A stretch of 64,000 nucleotides of DNA from Candidatus Brocadiaceae bacterium S225. GTDB lineage: Bacteria > Planctomycetota > Brocadiia > Brocadiales > Scalinduaceae. Positions 31,766-37,794 of the stretch are shown piece after piece. The notes beneath the pieces were generated by a model that did no database searches, was not told the DNA's origin, and saw only the letters and a list, made by a program, of their open reading frames with translations. Location of the stretch: contig SMSL01000003.1 of the NCBI GenBank assembly GCA_007859995.1, positions 124,001 through 188,000 on the forward strand. The letters are read 5' to 3'. Position numbers and translations under genes: made by a program. Every line of letters begins with the position of its first letter. Within the stretch, counting starts at the first letter, position 1.

Positions 31766-32701
31766 ATGTCTGATAAGGGTAAGAAGGAAGTAGAAAGCAT
31801 TTCAAGTACGCCTCCGCTGGCCAGCACACCATTCATTGATATCGACGCATATACGCCCAAGATGATGGCAAACAGGGTTGGGCAAGTGGGAGTCGCAAAA
31901 GCCAATATAGGTTTCCTCACAACGCTTGCCCTCAGTATTCTTGCCGGTGTTTTTATTGCGTTAGGCGCACAGCTGATGATGATGGTAACACATACAGCAA
32001 CCTCCAGTTTCGGCTTAAATGCGTTGGTTGGTGGTGTCGCCTTTACTATGGCATTAGTCCTAATCGTAATTACCGGCGCAGAGCTTTTTACGGGTAATTG
32101 TCTTATCGCCATGTCCTTTTTTGCCGGAAAGATTTCGAGTGGTGATCTTACCAGGAATCTGGTTATCGCTTTTATAGGAAATCTTATAGGCGCGTTGAGT
32201 ATAGTTTTCTGGATATACCTCTCCGCGCAGTGGACAGCCCACAACCATCTGCTTGGAGCCAAAATTGTCATTGCTGCCAATGATAAGGTTAATCTTACAT
32301 TTGGTGTTGCTTTTGCTAGAGGGGTTCTCTGTAATGTTCTGGTATGCATGGGTATCTGGTTGTGTTATAGTGCCAGAAATAATCTGGATAAGGTTTTGTC
32401 TTTGCTTTGGCCAATAGCTTGTCTGATCGCTTGCGGGTTTGAGCACTGCGTAGTTAATATGTGGCTCATCCCGATGGGTCTTATCTTGAAAGGCAACCGT
32501 TTCGTAATGGAGGCAGTTGACAGGGTAAATGGAGGACCGTTAGATGTTTCGAATCTTACCTGCGGTAAAGGCTTTTTAGTTGATAACTTGATTCCTGTTG
32601 TCCTTGGAAACTTATTTGGCGGTATTATATTAGTTGCGGGTGTCTACTGGTTTGTTTTTTTACGAACACCAAAGAATAAGAAAGTAGGTCCAAATGGCTG
32701 A
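31766..32701 (+). CDS. Formate/nitrite transporter (FNT) family channel, copy 1
   Basis: A 311-residue protein when started at ATG 31766, which has AAAGGCGG nine bases upstream. A start at 31727 is possible but lacks a site. Six transmembrane helices carry the FNT signatures AELFTGNCLIA and GFEHCVVNMWLIPMGL; the central-pore histidine lies in GFEH. The N-terminal cytoplasmic part has FIDIDAYTPKMMANR, shared with the next gene. FNT pentamers pass formate, nitrite or hydrosulfide; nitrite is plausible if this is an anammox bacterium (inference). Its end overlaps copy 2 by eight bases. Confidence 0.92.
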   Translation: MSDKGKKEVESISSTPPLASTPFIDIDAYTPKMMANRVGQVGVAKANIGFLTTLALSILAGVFIALGAQLMMMVTHTATSSFGLNALVGGVAFTMALVLIVITGAELFTGNCLIAMSFFAGKISSGDLTRNLVIAFIGNLIGALSIVFWIYLSAQWTAHNHLLGAKIVIAANDKVNLTFGVAFARGVLCNVLVCMGIWLCYSARNNLDKVLSLLWPIACLIACGFEHCVVNMWLIPMGLILKGNRFVMEAVDRVNGGPLDVSNLTCGKGFLVDNLIPVVLGNLFGGIILVAGVYWFVFLRTPKNKKVGPNG

Positions 32702-33809
32702 AAACAAGACTGGAAAAACTGTTAAGGCAACAAAACCCGTTAAAACGGCGAAAACTGTCAGGACTTCAAAGACTGTTAAGGCTGCAAAACCTGTCAAAAC
32801 GAAGATAGCTGCCAGGGCAACAAAGGCTGTTAAAACGGCGAAAACCGTTAGAACAACAAAGGCTGTCAGGTCTGTAAAATCGGTTAAAGTAACAAAGCCT
32901 GTTGTAACAGCACCAGAAAGTAGCCAGGCGGTTTACGATATAGACGCCTATTCACCCCCACAAATAGCAAAACGGCTTGATGCGGTAGCAGGTGTAAAGG
33001 CAAAAAATTCTGCTGTAAACACATTTTTTCTGGGTATTAATGCCGGCGCTTTTATAGCTCTGGGTGCTCAATTTGCTACCTTAGTGATAAGTGATTCCGG
33101 ACTACACAGCGGGCTTACGGCGGTAGTTGGGTCAATTGTATTCTGTCTCGGTTTCATAATGTATGTGGTTGGTGGCGGGGAGCTATTTACGGGTAACTGT
33201 TTGATTATTATTGGATATTTGGATAAAAAAGTTACAATCAGAAGAATCTGTGATAACTGGATATTTTCATTGAGTGGAAATTTCGTAGGGAGTCTATTAA
33301 TTGTCTTCTTTATATATAAGGCGCAACAATTTTCGTTCTACGATTATATGGTCGGCGGAAAGGCGCTGCTTCTTGCCAACAAAAAGGTTAATCTAACATT
33401 TACCAATGCCTTTTCAAAGGCGGTACTCTGTAATGCGATGGTTTGTATGGCGGTATGGGTATGTTTCAGTGCAAGAAATGTGGCAGACAAGATCATGACG
33501 CTTATATTCCCCATAGCCGGTTTCGTTGCCAGTGGATTTGAGCATGTAGTCGCAAATATGTATTATATTCCAATGGGTATAGTCTTAAAGAGTAAACCGG
33601 AAGTTGTTGCTGCTGCGGAAAAGATGGCAGGAAAGACATTAGACCTCTCCAATCTTACCTGGAAAGGGTTCCTGGTTATCAATCAATTCCCTGTGTTACT
33701 TGGAAATATTTTTGGAGGGGTTGTTCTGGCAGGCGTAGCGTTCTGGTTTATATACCTGCGTCCAAATCTTAACTTTTCATTCACGATAAAAGAAGATTTT
33801 AAAAGATAG
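32694..33809 (+). CDS. Formate/nitrite transporter (FNT) family channel, copy 2, with lysine-rich N-terminal tail
   Basis: A 371-residue FNT paralogue. The channel core (about 95-365) has GGGELFTGNCLII and GFEHVVANMYYIPMGI, with the pore histidine, and shares DIDAYSPPQIAKR with copy 1. Residues 1-72 form a tail made of K/R-x-x triplets: lysine or arginine at 5, 8, 11, 14, 17, 20, 23, 26, 29, 32 and 35, then, after a short slip (37, 41), at 44 through 68 in steps of three. No acidic residue follows E3 in this tail. It resembles histone H1/HctB-like tails and should lie in the cytoplasm. The start overlaps copy 1 by eight bases; a strong terminator follows. Confidence 0.92.
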   Translation: MAENKTGKTVKATKPVKTAKTVRTSKTVKAAKPVKTKIAARATKAVKTAKTVRTTKAVRSVKSVKVTKPVVTAPESSQAVYDIDAYSPPQIAKRLDAVAGVKAKNSAVNTFFLGINAGAFIALGAQFATLVISDSGLHSGLTAVVGSIVFCLGFIMYVVGGGELFTGNCLIIIGYLDKKVTIRRICDNWIFSLSGNFVGSLLIVFFIYKAQQFSFYDYMVGGKALLLANKKVNLTFTNAFSKAVLCNAMVCMAVWVCFSARNVADKIMTLIFPIAGFVASGFEHVVANMYYIPMGIVLKSKPEVVAAAEKMAGKTLDLSNLTWKGFLVINQFPVLLGNIFGGVVLAGVAFWFIYLRPNLNFSFTIKEDFKR

Positions 33810-33906
33810 AACACGATTTGCTAATGAGTTGAATCTAAAGACATAATTAATTCAAATTCTAAAAAGTTCAACTAGTTCAATTTCTGAAAAAGGCGAAACG
33901 AAAAAA

Positions 33907-33930
33907 CCCACCAATCCTGGTGGGTTTTTT
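33907..33930 (+). terminator. Rho-independent terminator after the FNT pair
   Basis: CCCACCA and TGGTGGG form a perfect 7-base stem with an ATCC loop, followed directly by six T residues at 33925-33930 and preceded by an A-run. It lies about 100 bases after the second transporter stop and would work in both directions. Confidence 0.92.
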
Positions 33931-33963
33931 CATATGCCACCTCTATTGGACGGATTTATTATT

Positions 33964-34097: not shown

Positions 34098-34192
34098 ATC
34101 AAAAAAATTGTATTTGTTGACAGTTGTATTGTTTTGCGTTAGTCTTTTTGTTTTCATCTTTTTATGGAATTTGAAAAGGGGGAGTTGTGGAG

Positions 34193-34939
34193 ATGTGCGG
34201 AAGGGTATGTGCGAAGTACATTATATTCAGCTTAATGAGTTTACTAATTTTTGGTACTATGATGGCTTCCACTGGTGCGTCTGCAGATTCACATGACCCG
34301 ACTGAAGCGCTTCTCAAATTAATGTCGGGCAATGTACGTTTCAGCTCATGTCAGTCTACTCATCCGAATATTTCCGCAGAACGGAGAAAACAGGTAACCA
34401 GAGACGGGCAGCATCCTTTTGCAACCGTAATTGCCTGCTCTGATTCAAGGGTTCCGGTAGAGATATTATTTGATCAGGGGGTGGGAGATATTTTTGTAAT
34501 AAAGGTTGCAGGAAATGTTTGTAATACTGACGAGATTGGTTCTATTGAGTACGGGATTGACCATTTGGAGACACCTGTAATGGTAGTCTTAGGGCATACC
34601 CACTGTGGTGCGTGTACTGCGGTTGCCACAGGCGCAGATGTTCACGGCTGTATCCCAGACTTAATTGCGCCTATCAGGCCTGCGTTAGAGAAAGAGCAGA
34701 CAGCTCACCCGAATTTACATGGCAAAGCTCTTGTTCCAGCACTGGTTGAGGCAAACGTGTGGCAGGCAATAGAGGATCTTTTCCAAAGAAGTTCTTCAAT
34801 CCGAAGGAGAACGAATGATGGGAGAGTAACAGTTGTTGGCGCTGTGTATAACATAGAGACAGGAACTGTGAAATGGATGGGCACACATCCTGAAGAAGAT
34901 AGTCTTCTTGCTGATATGAAATATAATGTGTGGGAATAA
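34193..34939 (+). CDS. Beta-class carbonic anhydrase, exported
   Basis: A 248-residue zinc enzyme interconverting CO2 and bicarbonate. Zinc ligands are complete: C82 and the D84-R86 dyad in ACSDSRVP, and H135 and C138 in GHTHCGA. The N-terminus (KYIIFSLMSLLIFGTMM then ASADSHD) looks like a cleavable signal peptide, so it should act outside the cytoplasm. I chose ATG 34193 because GGGGGAG ends eight bases before it; a GTG at 34187 is too close. It is intact although the adjoining minus-strand dabB and dabA genes, also concerned with inorganic carbon, are broken. Confidence 0.93.
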   Translation: MCGRVCAKYIIFSLMSLLIFGTMMASTGASADSHDPTEALLKLMSGNVRFSSCQSTHPNISAERRKQVTRDGQHPFATVIACSDSRVPVEILFDQGVGDIFVIKVAGNVCNTDEIGSIEYGIDHLETPVMVVLGHTHCGACTAVATGADVHGCIPDLIAPIRPALEKEQTAHPNLHGKALVPALVEANVWQAIEDLFQRSSSIRRRTNDGRVTVVGAVYNIETGTVKWMGTHPEEDSLLADMKYNVWE

Positions 34940-35021: not shown

Positions 35022-36364
35022 TTATGCTGCTGATGGATCTGTAGCCTTCGCGACAAATAAAACAAAAAGATCAGAAAAAGACAACACGGACATTGGATCT
35101 ATGTCACTCTTAAGCTTGTCTATCAACATTATGTAAATGAGTACCACTGAGCAGAAAAGATTAAAGAAAAACAGGATCACTCTACGTATATTTAAGAAGC
35201 TTAGTATTGTGAAACCTATCGCGAGTGCCGTTAGAAATTCCTCTTTGACGTTGAAATAATAGCCATTGAAGATGTAGATTATAATGCCGAAAACTATCCA
35301 CATAATGGTAACCATAAAGGCAAAGCGTCCCGCAGATTTTATGTCGTAACGCACAAAAATCAAACCGAGAAAGATCTCAATGTAAATTATAGCGAGCTGT
35401 GTCATGGTAGCATACGCAATGGTATTTTTGGCATCGGAAAGCTGCCTGCTCATGTGGGTTGTGGCAAATGCAGAAACCAGACAAATGGCGATTGCAATGA
35501 CTATGGCATTTGCCGGATGCCAAAATGTCCACACTTCAGGCCAATACGTAAAAAATGACCACTCCCTGGGCCAGGCATGAAGAAGAACAAAAATTGGAAC
35601 GTGGGTAGACAACGAACCATAGAATACTGCACTTGACGGTGTGGGCCCCTCCATCGCACGCGGCAGCCATATCCATGGAAAACCCCTGATTTGATGAAAC
35701 ATGCTAGAATTAATAAGACCATTGCCCACTCGTAACCATGTTCCTGGAGTGAAATTAAGTCGCTCATATCTTCAACGTGGAGGAAGAGCAGCAGCATGAT
35801 CAGAGAGAACATGAAGATGTCTCCTACCTTATAGATAAACATTATCCGTATGGCGTTCTTGAGCGGGTTTGTACGATGTTCATAGAAAGCGATAAGAAGT
35901 ACCGAAGAAAGACCTAACAACTCCCAACCCATGAACATATAGTTGGTGCTTGAACTGAGTACGACAAGCCCCAGGGACAATTGAAAGATGAAATAGAGGG
36001 AGAAGAACTTATGATAATACGCGTCGCGGTGCAGGTAAAAGAGGGAAAAATGACCGAGTACCGCAATTATCGTTGTCGTGAATGACAGAAAGATAAACGT
36101 ATGGAGATCCCAATGTACGATGAAGGTCCAGCCTATGAAACAGAAGGCTTCAATCCGCACCGGCAGTGTGTCGAATCCCAGAAAAATCAAGGCAATTGCG
36201 ATATGAGTAAAATCACTGGCATTTCCCCAATGCACCAGTTTGCGGACCAGGTTCTCCTCGCGTTCCTGTTCGCTGAAACAATAATGAACGTTTATAAAAA
36301 GTACTTTGGCAATTGGGAATAGCACGAAGTAGTGTGCAAGATATATAACCACAAAAGTTTCCAA
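35022..36364 (-). pseudogene. dabB: Frameshifted dabB (NuoL-like subunit of the DabAB inorganic carbon accumulation complex)
   Basis: Two overlapping frames together give a NuoL/proton-antiporter-type membrane protein of about 447 residues. The first, from ATG 36364, runs through MGWELLGLSSVLLIAFY to LILACFIKSG. The second continues with FPWIWLPRAMEGPTPSSAVF, the classic conserved lysine-helix and W-LPxAMegPTP motif, and ends at 35022. The break is at the AAAACCCC run (35679-35686), where a one-base indel joins the halves. DabB couples an ion gradient to DabA-driven bicarbonate uptake. The homopolymer site could be a sequencing error, but the adjoining dabA is independently destroyed. Confidence 0.8.
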
Positions 36365-36374
36365 CGAATGTCTC

Positions 36375-37287
36375 CTATTTAATTAGTCCGAACAAAAGAT
36401 GGTCCTGTTCGAGAAAAAATCGTGGATCGTTGCTCTTGTATTCAGGCACATCCACTGTCTCCTCAAACGGTACAAATCGACCTTCCATCCCGCCTTGCCA
36501 TAAAAAGATTTTTTCCAGATCCTGATCGTGAACTGCAAGGGTTATCCAATTGTGTTTCACCAGGCATTGAAAGTGCCCTGGTTGATTGGTGTAACCGAAT
36601 GCTTCACCGAGGATGGTTTCCATTGTCTCAACCTTACACCAAACGAGCAGGATTAATCATGTTGGTTCATGGACATCAACCATCTGCCAGGGCAGTCCCA
36701 ACTGCAGGTCACTCAGATGGCCATTCATCACACCCAACAGTGATGTTACGTTGTGAGGCAGTTTGGTGCCACAGCCCTTTTTCGCGATGAGGCATGGGCC
36801 AATAGGACAGACCGAAGTCGAAATAGGAAGGCAGAAACTTAAAGAGAACCGGGCCCATTAACTCGTCAATGTCGTGATTATGTTCGCTCTGAACCGCCTC
36901 TCTGTAATAGCCGGGGCGTTGATATGCGGTGTCATCTATGAACTGTTTAATCCTTTTGTCCGGTTTCTGGCGGGTATCAGGTTTCTCTGTCATGAGCCCG
37001 AACAGAAGATCCGGATCAATAGTAAGACTGTGATACTTTATATATTCCTCAATCTTCTTTTGAAGAATTGTCGCCGTAATACGGTCCCGTTCAAACGACA
37101 GGAGAAATTCTTCTTCGGACATAAAGGCTTTGGCACCATAAGTACGTCCCGCTTGTTTAACACCTTCAAAAAAAATGTATGTTTCAAAGTGGTGAATGGT
37201 ATTGTGGTGAACGAAGAAAGGGAGCGGACCTTGATCCGGCATCAAATGTTTTGCGTGTTCAATAGCGTGTTCAATTTTGTCTAACAT
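36375..37287 (-). pseudogene. dabA: dabA (DUF2309) remnant: internal deletion, frameshift and nonsense codon
   Basis: DabA is a zinc protein of roughly 800-1100 residues resembling a beta-carbonic anhydrase. Here only the ends survive. The N-part, from ATG 37287 (GGGGAGGG upstream), has LPFFVHHNTIHHFE and YGAKAFMSEEEF up to about residue 180. The C-part has [19 protein letters not shown], then VHEPT, an in-frame TGA at 36657-36659, LILLVW and a normal C-terminus. The halves are joined near 36747-36766, with an extra G around 36733 shifting the frame. The central several hundred codons, which hold the zinc-binding catalytic residues, are gone. It lies 10 bases upstream of dabB. Confidence 0.82.
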
Positions 37288-37352
37288 CGTTCCCTCCCCT
37301 GATAAAATAAAAAACAACAGCGCTCGTTAAAGAGTTTTTATAACTGCCTTTT

Positions 37353-37511
37353 CTATTTTTCACACCATCGCAACTCATCTTCCATTCTCCTTCGCTCTGT
37401 AGTATCACCTATTGCTCATTCAATACGGACAGGAATGCCATCATTGTCTTTTACCATGTCAGAAGTACGTTTAGAGAATCAAAGGTATTTGCCATCATAT
37501 TGAAGGATGTT
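37353..37511 (-). pseudogene. PAS/PAC sensor-domain remnant
   Basis: Reading the minus strand from about 37511 gives LQYDGKYL, a stop, FSKRTSDMVKDNDGIPVRIE, a stop, AIGDTTERRRMEDELR and finally TAG at 37353-37355. This is the typical PAC motif (R-D-xx-G-x-P-x-R-I-x-G-x-x-x-D-I-T-E-R-K), broken by TGA at 37479-37481, where tryptophan is expected, and at 37416-37418, where glycine is expected. It is a decayed piece of a PAS-containing sensor. It lies between the dabA remnant and the transposase fragment. Confidence 0.6.
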
Positions 37512-37536
37512 GTCAGGACTTCGAGGAGGTTTATAC

Positions 37537-37794
37537 ATGAAAGATTGGAAAAGCTTAGCACATACAAAATGGGATTGCAAGTTTCACGTTGTCTTTCTAC
37601 CCATATACAGACATAAAGTATTTTTTGCTAAGAATCGTATACGAGCAGAAAAAATGCTAAGAGAACTCCGTCGGCATAAAGGTATTGAGTTATTGGAGGG
37701 GAATGCTCAGTCCGATCATATACATATTTATGTTTCGATCTCCACTTCCCCCAAATTAATGTCATTAAAAGCGTTTAGCTACGAAATGGTATAA
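37537..37794 (+). mobile_element. tnpA: IS200/IS605-family transposase TnpA fragment (truncated)
   Basis: An 85-residue frame from ATG 37537 with GAGGAGGT just upstream. It starts with the conserved KDWKSLAHTKWDCKFHVVFL segment and continues through KVFFAKNR and GIELLEGNAQSDHIHIYVSI, in which HIH is the HUH metal-binding motif. After residue 70 the similarity ends and a stop follows, so the catalytic-tyrosine helix and C-terminus are lost. The copy cannot be active. No accessory TnpB is nearby. I cannot define its ends. Confidence 0.82.

Follow-up and report, generated by a model that had tools for sequence, protein, structure and literature searches.

Channels of the formate/nitrite (FNT) family have their termini in the cytoplasm (PMC5572259), and the N-terminal helix of E. 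coli FocA faces the cytoplasm and binds PflB, while its removal disrupts translocation (PMC11841067). Strongly basic repeat tails, in turn, are described on surface-sitting proteins of Pseudomonas: PhaF, which positions granules and sees to their segregation, binds DNA through its lysine-rich domain (PMC3574117), while the KPAA tail of AlgP is required for the spacing of polyphosphate granules (PMC9239181). Among anammox bacteria, Kuenenia carries several FocA genes that differ in expression, with formate transport suggested for some of them (PMC7438415), and S. profunda has an adjacent FocA-like pair, scal00974/scal00975, in an article whose main text does not contain the word lysine (PMC3655542). 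A literature search found no description of an FNT channel bearing a lysine tail. Here, we examined a window of 64,000 nucleotides from the draft genome (2.96 Mb, 79% complete) of Candidatus Brocadiaceae bacterium S225, classified in the Scalinduaceae. Scalindua dominates marine anammox. The window encodes a protein, FNT2, in which a known channel family carries a known kind of tail—a combination that is new.

FNT2 is the downstream member of an adjacent gene pair (Table 1), an arrangement that it shares with the FNTs of other anammox bacteria; wherever anammox genomes were inspected for it, the pair is conserved. The end of FNT1 and the start of FNT2 overlap by 8 nt (ATGGCTGA). A displaced FNT1 stop producing such an overlap with the FNT2 start (window 32670-32701) was seen in genomes G000 and G008; in relatives such as G004, G010 and G012, the FNT1 stop lies about 14 nt ahead of FNT2.

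Table 1. Features of the FNT pair and its surroundings, in positions of the 64,000-nt window
Feature	Position	Strand	Details
FNT1 (FocA-type)	31766..32701	+	311 aa; tail-less pair member; PF01226 216.7 bits
Likely ribosome-binding site GTAGGT of FNT2	32684..32689	+	sequence comparison
FNT2 (FocA-type channel with tail)	32694..33809	+	371 aa; N-terminal helix from about residue 83
FNT2 tail with period-3 basic residues	32694..32912	+	residues 1-73; 21/22 in-phase sites basic (5 to 68), plus K37
18-bp sub-repeat within the tail DNA	32706-32794	+	63% match; Tandem Repeats Finder
Degenerate 54-bp tandem repeat under the tail	32714..32833	+	2.2 copies, 78% match; Tandem Repeats Finder
Terminator-like hairpin CCCACCA-ATCC-TGGTGGG, then TTTTTT	33901..33932	+	3' of FNT2; by eye
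Beta-class carbonic anhydrase, signal-like N-terminus	34187..34939	+	context; not claimed as part of the system

An earlier note on this DNA, made from the letters alone, had taken FNT2 for a real FNT channel, and this assignment was borne out: the protein matches PF01226 with 225.6 bits (cut-off 34.6) along profile positions 2-240 of 240, and the basic tail lies within the same reading frame. Since its score against the FocA equivalog TIGR04060 (225.1 bits) falls below the cut-off of 290.1, FNT2 is FocA-like, not FocA. From residue 83 on, the sequence aligns with solved FocA structures (3kly, E 7.8e-57; 3kcu, E 8.5e-52); the solved LCIA channel 9v2a also matches (E 3e-34), but FocA does so better. 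In an alignment of 24 anammox FNTs, T166, K231, N247 and H284 of FNT2 are invariant; T166 and H284 align with T91 and H209 in the pore of FocA, and we take K231 and N247 to be the equivalents of K156 and N172 in E. coli FocA. The likeness to FocA-type FNTs (PF01226) spans the whole core, with the pore Thr, Lys, Asn and His kept, whereas neither the matched solved FNTs nor the Brocadiaceae orthologues have a counterpart to FNT2 residues 1 to about 80. FNT1 had been called a close paralogue, which overstates an identity of about 44-45% to FNT2 over the core.

An AlphaFold2 model built from a shallow input alignment (24 rows) showed a helical core, its ten-residue blocks mostly at pLDDT 51-94, and left residues 1-80 without secondary structure at pLDDT 28-41, the tail leading directly into a helix matching the one at the N-terminus of FocA. 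The suggestion that the tail hangs in the cytoplasm is supported by homology with FocA.

Basic residues of the tail occupy positions 5, 8, 11, 14, 17, 20, 23, 26, 29, 32, 35, 37, 41, 44, 47, 50, 53, 56, 59, 62, 65 and 68 (n=22), giving a net charge of +20 (G000). The sole acidic residue before residue 75 is E3, and up to that point it is true, as had been claimed, that none follows it. A basic residue at nearly every third position had likewise been proposed, with phase slips at 37 and 41. The 22 basic residues stand, and the rhythm is far from accidental: no composition-preserving shuffle among 20,000 reached the in-phase count of 21, and 0/20,000 reached 19 i/i+3 basic pairs. The strictness of the rule is broken once, by I38, the single third position between K5 and K68 without K or R, beside the extra basic residue K37; yet the supposed slips vanish on inspection, R41 and K44 being in the phase of K5-K35, which is unbroken. 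The repeat unit is K-[T/P/A/S]-[V/A/T] with period 3, and the consensus across all Scalinduaceae tails is K/R, then T/P/A/S, then V/A/T. Period-3 placement exceeds chance at p <=4e-4 in 9/11 of these tails and at 0.005 and 0.009 in the remaining two; runs of i/i+3 pairs are weak in two of the shortest, those of G005 (p 0.10) and G013 (p 0.09).

For relatives, 59 genomes were searched and the reading frames then inspected. FNT2 was found in 11 Scalinduaceae genomes and is tailed in 11/11, with 36-115 aa (36 aa in G005) ahead of a D-x-D-A-Y-S-P motif. This rules out the reservation, raised earlier, that the tail might be slippage noise absent from relatives, and slippage confined to one genome was likewise rejected. 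FNT1 never carries such a tail among the anammox genomes examined, and Brocadiaceae FNT2 orthologues are tail-less and have a brief N-terminus, MAENKVPKTIQVIDIDAYSPP for example. Several Scalinduaceae genomes, some of them rated 95% complete, lack any FNT pair, which is therefore not essential to the family. In a maximum-likelihood tree of the cores, the 11 tailed proteins form one clade (support 100/100), so that a single gain on the Scalinduaceae stem suffices. Two Brocadiaceae loci deviate in other ways: in L135 (G034 C3:94300-96600), an FNT1 without its C-terminal end runs into FNT2 within one open frame of 605 aa, and at L108 (7770-8834, +) an FNT1 is extended at its N-terminus by a different, acidic/asparagine-rich stretch of about 50 aa.

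As to the source of the tail, some Brocadiaceae N-termini, such as MAENKVPKTIQV, already read K5-x-x-K8, which means that it may have grown in place. Tandem Repeats Finder returned periods of 9, 18, 27, 36, 45, 54 and 90 bp in the tails, with one exception of 26 bp, and this is how growth by whole residue triplets would look. The tail is apparently an expansion of the ancestral K-x-x-K start in 9n-bp steps, and its source was probably the short native N-terminus, not a histone-like domain taken up from elsewhere. Repeat changes of 9n bp alter the length of the tail and replace its filler residues; the K/R-x-x rhythm and a near-constant net charge per residue stay. A tandem-repeat origin is likely and leaves room for selection on charge at a later stage. 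Long 9-bp repeat arrays (AAACGGCTT/AAACAGCTT and kin), apparently intergenic, were also seen at four Scalinduaceae loci (L137, L138, L139, L140); in two Scalinduaceae genomes, the frames flanking 9-bp arrays resemble CRISPR-Cas proteins by eye.

Homology of the tail to histone H1 or chlamydial HctB, of whose tails its rhythm had been said to be reminiscent, was not supported: no histone-like family (H1, Hc1, HctB) matched it in Pfam at E up to 10, and a histone or other known domain was rejected on the same search. What the tail shares with the H1 tail and with Hc1/HctB is a lysine-rich, low-complexity and disordered character; it differs in sitting on a membrane channel and in lacking the globular H1 domain. 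PhaF and AlgP offer another comparison, as they too carry a disordered, strongly basic repeat tail on a surface-sitting protein, and their trait of disorder combined with high positive charge recurs in FNT2. However, the surface is a granule there and a membrane here, and AlgP has KPAA at its C-terminus (period 4) whereas FNT2 has K-x-x at its N-terminus (period 3), with no tandem KPAA in the tail. The likeness is one of kind, without shown homology, and polyanion binding by FNT2 is a prediction by analogy.

Within the same genome, the only other tail of the FNT2 type is a short one, the TTKTSKTTKTSKTTKTTKAPK C-terminus of bL19 (L055 1469-1993, -), which likewise has a K-T-x rhythm and sits on a cytoplasmic RNA-binding protein, but is short and ends in mixed acidic and basic residues; relatives do not preserve its strict rhythm, their bL19 tails being K/A-rich and variable, or short. 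Other ARR-period-9 matches in relatives for the most part reflected repeats of 9 bp in the DNA or lay in other reading frames. We also surveyed FNTs in about 1,190 genomes from four phyla—294 Planctomycetota, 301 genomes in the phylum of the Anaerolineae locus L035, 299 in that of L036 (Clostridia) and 296 in that of L042 (Chitinophagaceae). By local alignment, which would miss a tail of unlike sequence, no FNT with a period-3 lysine N-terminus appeared among the matches in about 170 genomes outside the anammox order. Those matches that reached into the tail region mostly contained stop codons, and direct reading of 11 Planctomycetota loci, among them the four whose matches extended deepest into that region, revealed no such tail.

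Drawing from these comparisons, we tentatively propose, by analogy with PhaF and AlgP and at somewhat less than even confidence, that Scalinduaceae FNT2 is a FocA-type pentameric anion channel whose disordered polycation tail binds polyanions. In this scheme, the N-terminus would have expanded into an intrinsically disordered polycation, and the five tails of a pentamer would place about +50 to +155 charges on the cytoplasmic (riboplasm) face. Acting by bulk charge and not through a specific motif, they could hold the channel against polyanions of the riboplasm, be it nucleoid DNA, ribosomal RNA, polyphosphate or acidic lipid, in a manner comparable to the lysine-repeat tails of PhaF and AlgP. 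Because charge is conserved and no motif is, a multivalent, non-specific polyanion handle would be the best explanation of the tail. If it does bind nucleic acid or polyphosphate, it would tie a substrate channel physically to nucleoid or granules within a bacterium that is compartmentalised, which bears on where anammox transporters are located and on how the anammoxosome is positioned and inherited. Ready-made controls exist in the tail-less FNT1 beside the tailed FNT2 and in the tail-less Brocadiaceae orthologues.

The most serious competitor, though we consider it doubtful, is that tandem-repeat expansion produced the tail incidentally, without a function of its own: slippage would have lengthened a native MAENK-x-x-K start, a basic, disordered cytoplasmic N-terminus would be harmless, in keeping with the positive-inside rule, and only acidic or hydrophobic changes would be weeded out. 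The repeat periods of 9 to 90 bp and the highly variable length speak for this account, as do the K5-x-x-K8 already present in Brocadiaceae and the short K-T-x stretch on bL19 of the same genome, itself variable in relatives. Against it stand the retention of the tail in every FNT2 orthologue and never on FNT1, together with an almost constant charge density: net charge per residue ranges from 0.23 to 0.32 across the 11 tails, while length varies threefold. The codons tell against it as well. Of 206 in-phase residues, 177 are K or R and 14 are E; the first base of the in-phase codons is A in 185/206, whereas the third is A in 114 and G in 86, a mixture indicating that it is free to change. Synonymous third bases of the lysine codons are mixed while the basic residue is retained. 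The tails align too poorly with one another for pairwise counts of synonymous and nonsynonymous changes to weigh in either direction. Constant charge, the codon-base pattern and the retention in 11/11 FNT2 proteins but never on FNT1 point to selection for charge. The target may be charge rather than rhythm, and it is possible that the K-x-x rhythm was passively inherited from the 9n-bp tandem repeats.

We regard it as rather unlikely that the tail instead tunes transport, an idea that draws on its junction with a helix matching the gating N-terminus of FocA and on the PflB binding and translocation role of that helix in E. coli (PMC11841067). Two routes can be envisaged: the charge of the tail could concentrate anions (formate, nitrite or bicarbonate) where the pore opens to the cytoplasm, or it could hold the helix by way of a soluble partner, as PflB does for FocA. 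However, up to 115 residues far exceed the need of a funnel or a partner-docking motif, no docking motif is conserved, long-range charge is screened by cell salt, and the Brocadiaceae orthologues manage without a tail. A more specific version of tethering, which we consider improbable, casts FNT2 as a membrane-bound tether and the tail as a Scalinduaceae invention: the tails would hold the anammoxosome (or plasma) membrane to the nucleoid or ribosomes and so place the organelle or channel as PhaF places granules.

A misannotated start that leaves the tail untranslated, or a tail that is an assembly artefact, is very hard to maintain despite the draft state of the genome, as independent genomes all keep an open frame through the tail, most orthologues share the M-A-E start (10/11) and a ribosome-binding site, and no in-frame ATG, GTG or TTG occurs between FNT2 codons 2 and 120. 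The FNT2 ATG lies a few bases 3' of GTAGGT, a motif that precedes it in 9/11 Scalinduaceae orthologues and is replaced by TTAGGT in G005 and absent in G013. A late translation start near residue 75 is for the same lack of start codons unlikely. The one in-frame CTG, codon 113, falls within the first membrane helix; a tail-less channel could consequently arise only via processing or a rare start codon.

Returning to the channel, for which we favour polyanion binding, its cargo may be formate, nitrite or bicarbonate. A beta-carbonic anhydrase adjoins the FNT pair in G000, G008, G011 and G015, and DabA/DabB-type genes lie near it in G000, G012 and G015; these neighbours suggest a link of the pair to inorganic carbon or formate, not nitrite. 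In the window, the terminator-like hairpin between FNT2 and the carbonic anhydrase was recognised by eye and is missing from the list of a consensus terminator scan. Further downstream, the DabB-like gene (35022-37330, -) looks broken, its frame changing near 35650, and so does the DabA-like gene (37507-37794), which matches just profile positions 1-141 of 747 and beyond which lies an IS200-like transposase. The broken DabB and DabA frames reflect either decay or draft error, and G012 and G015 seem to keep a single DabB frame across the point matching position 35650 or thereabouts.
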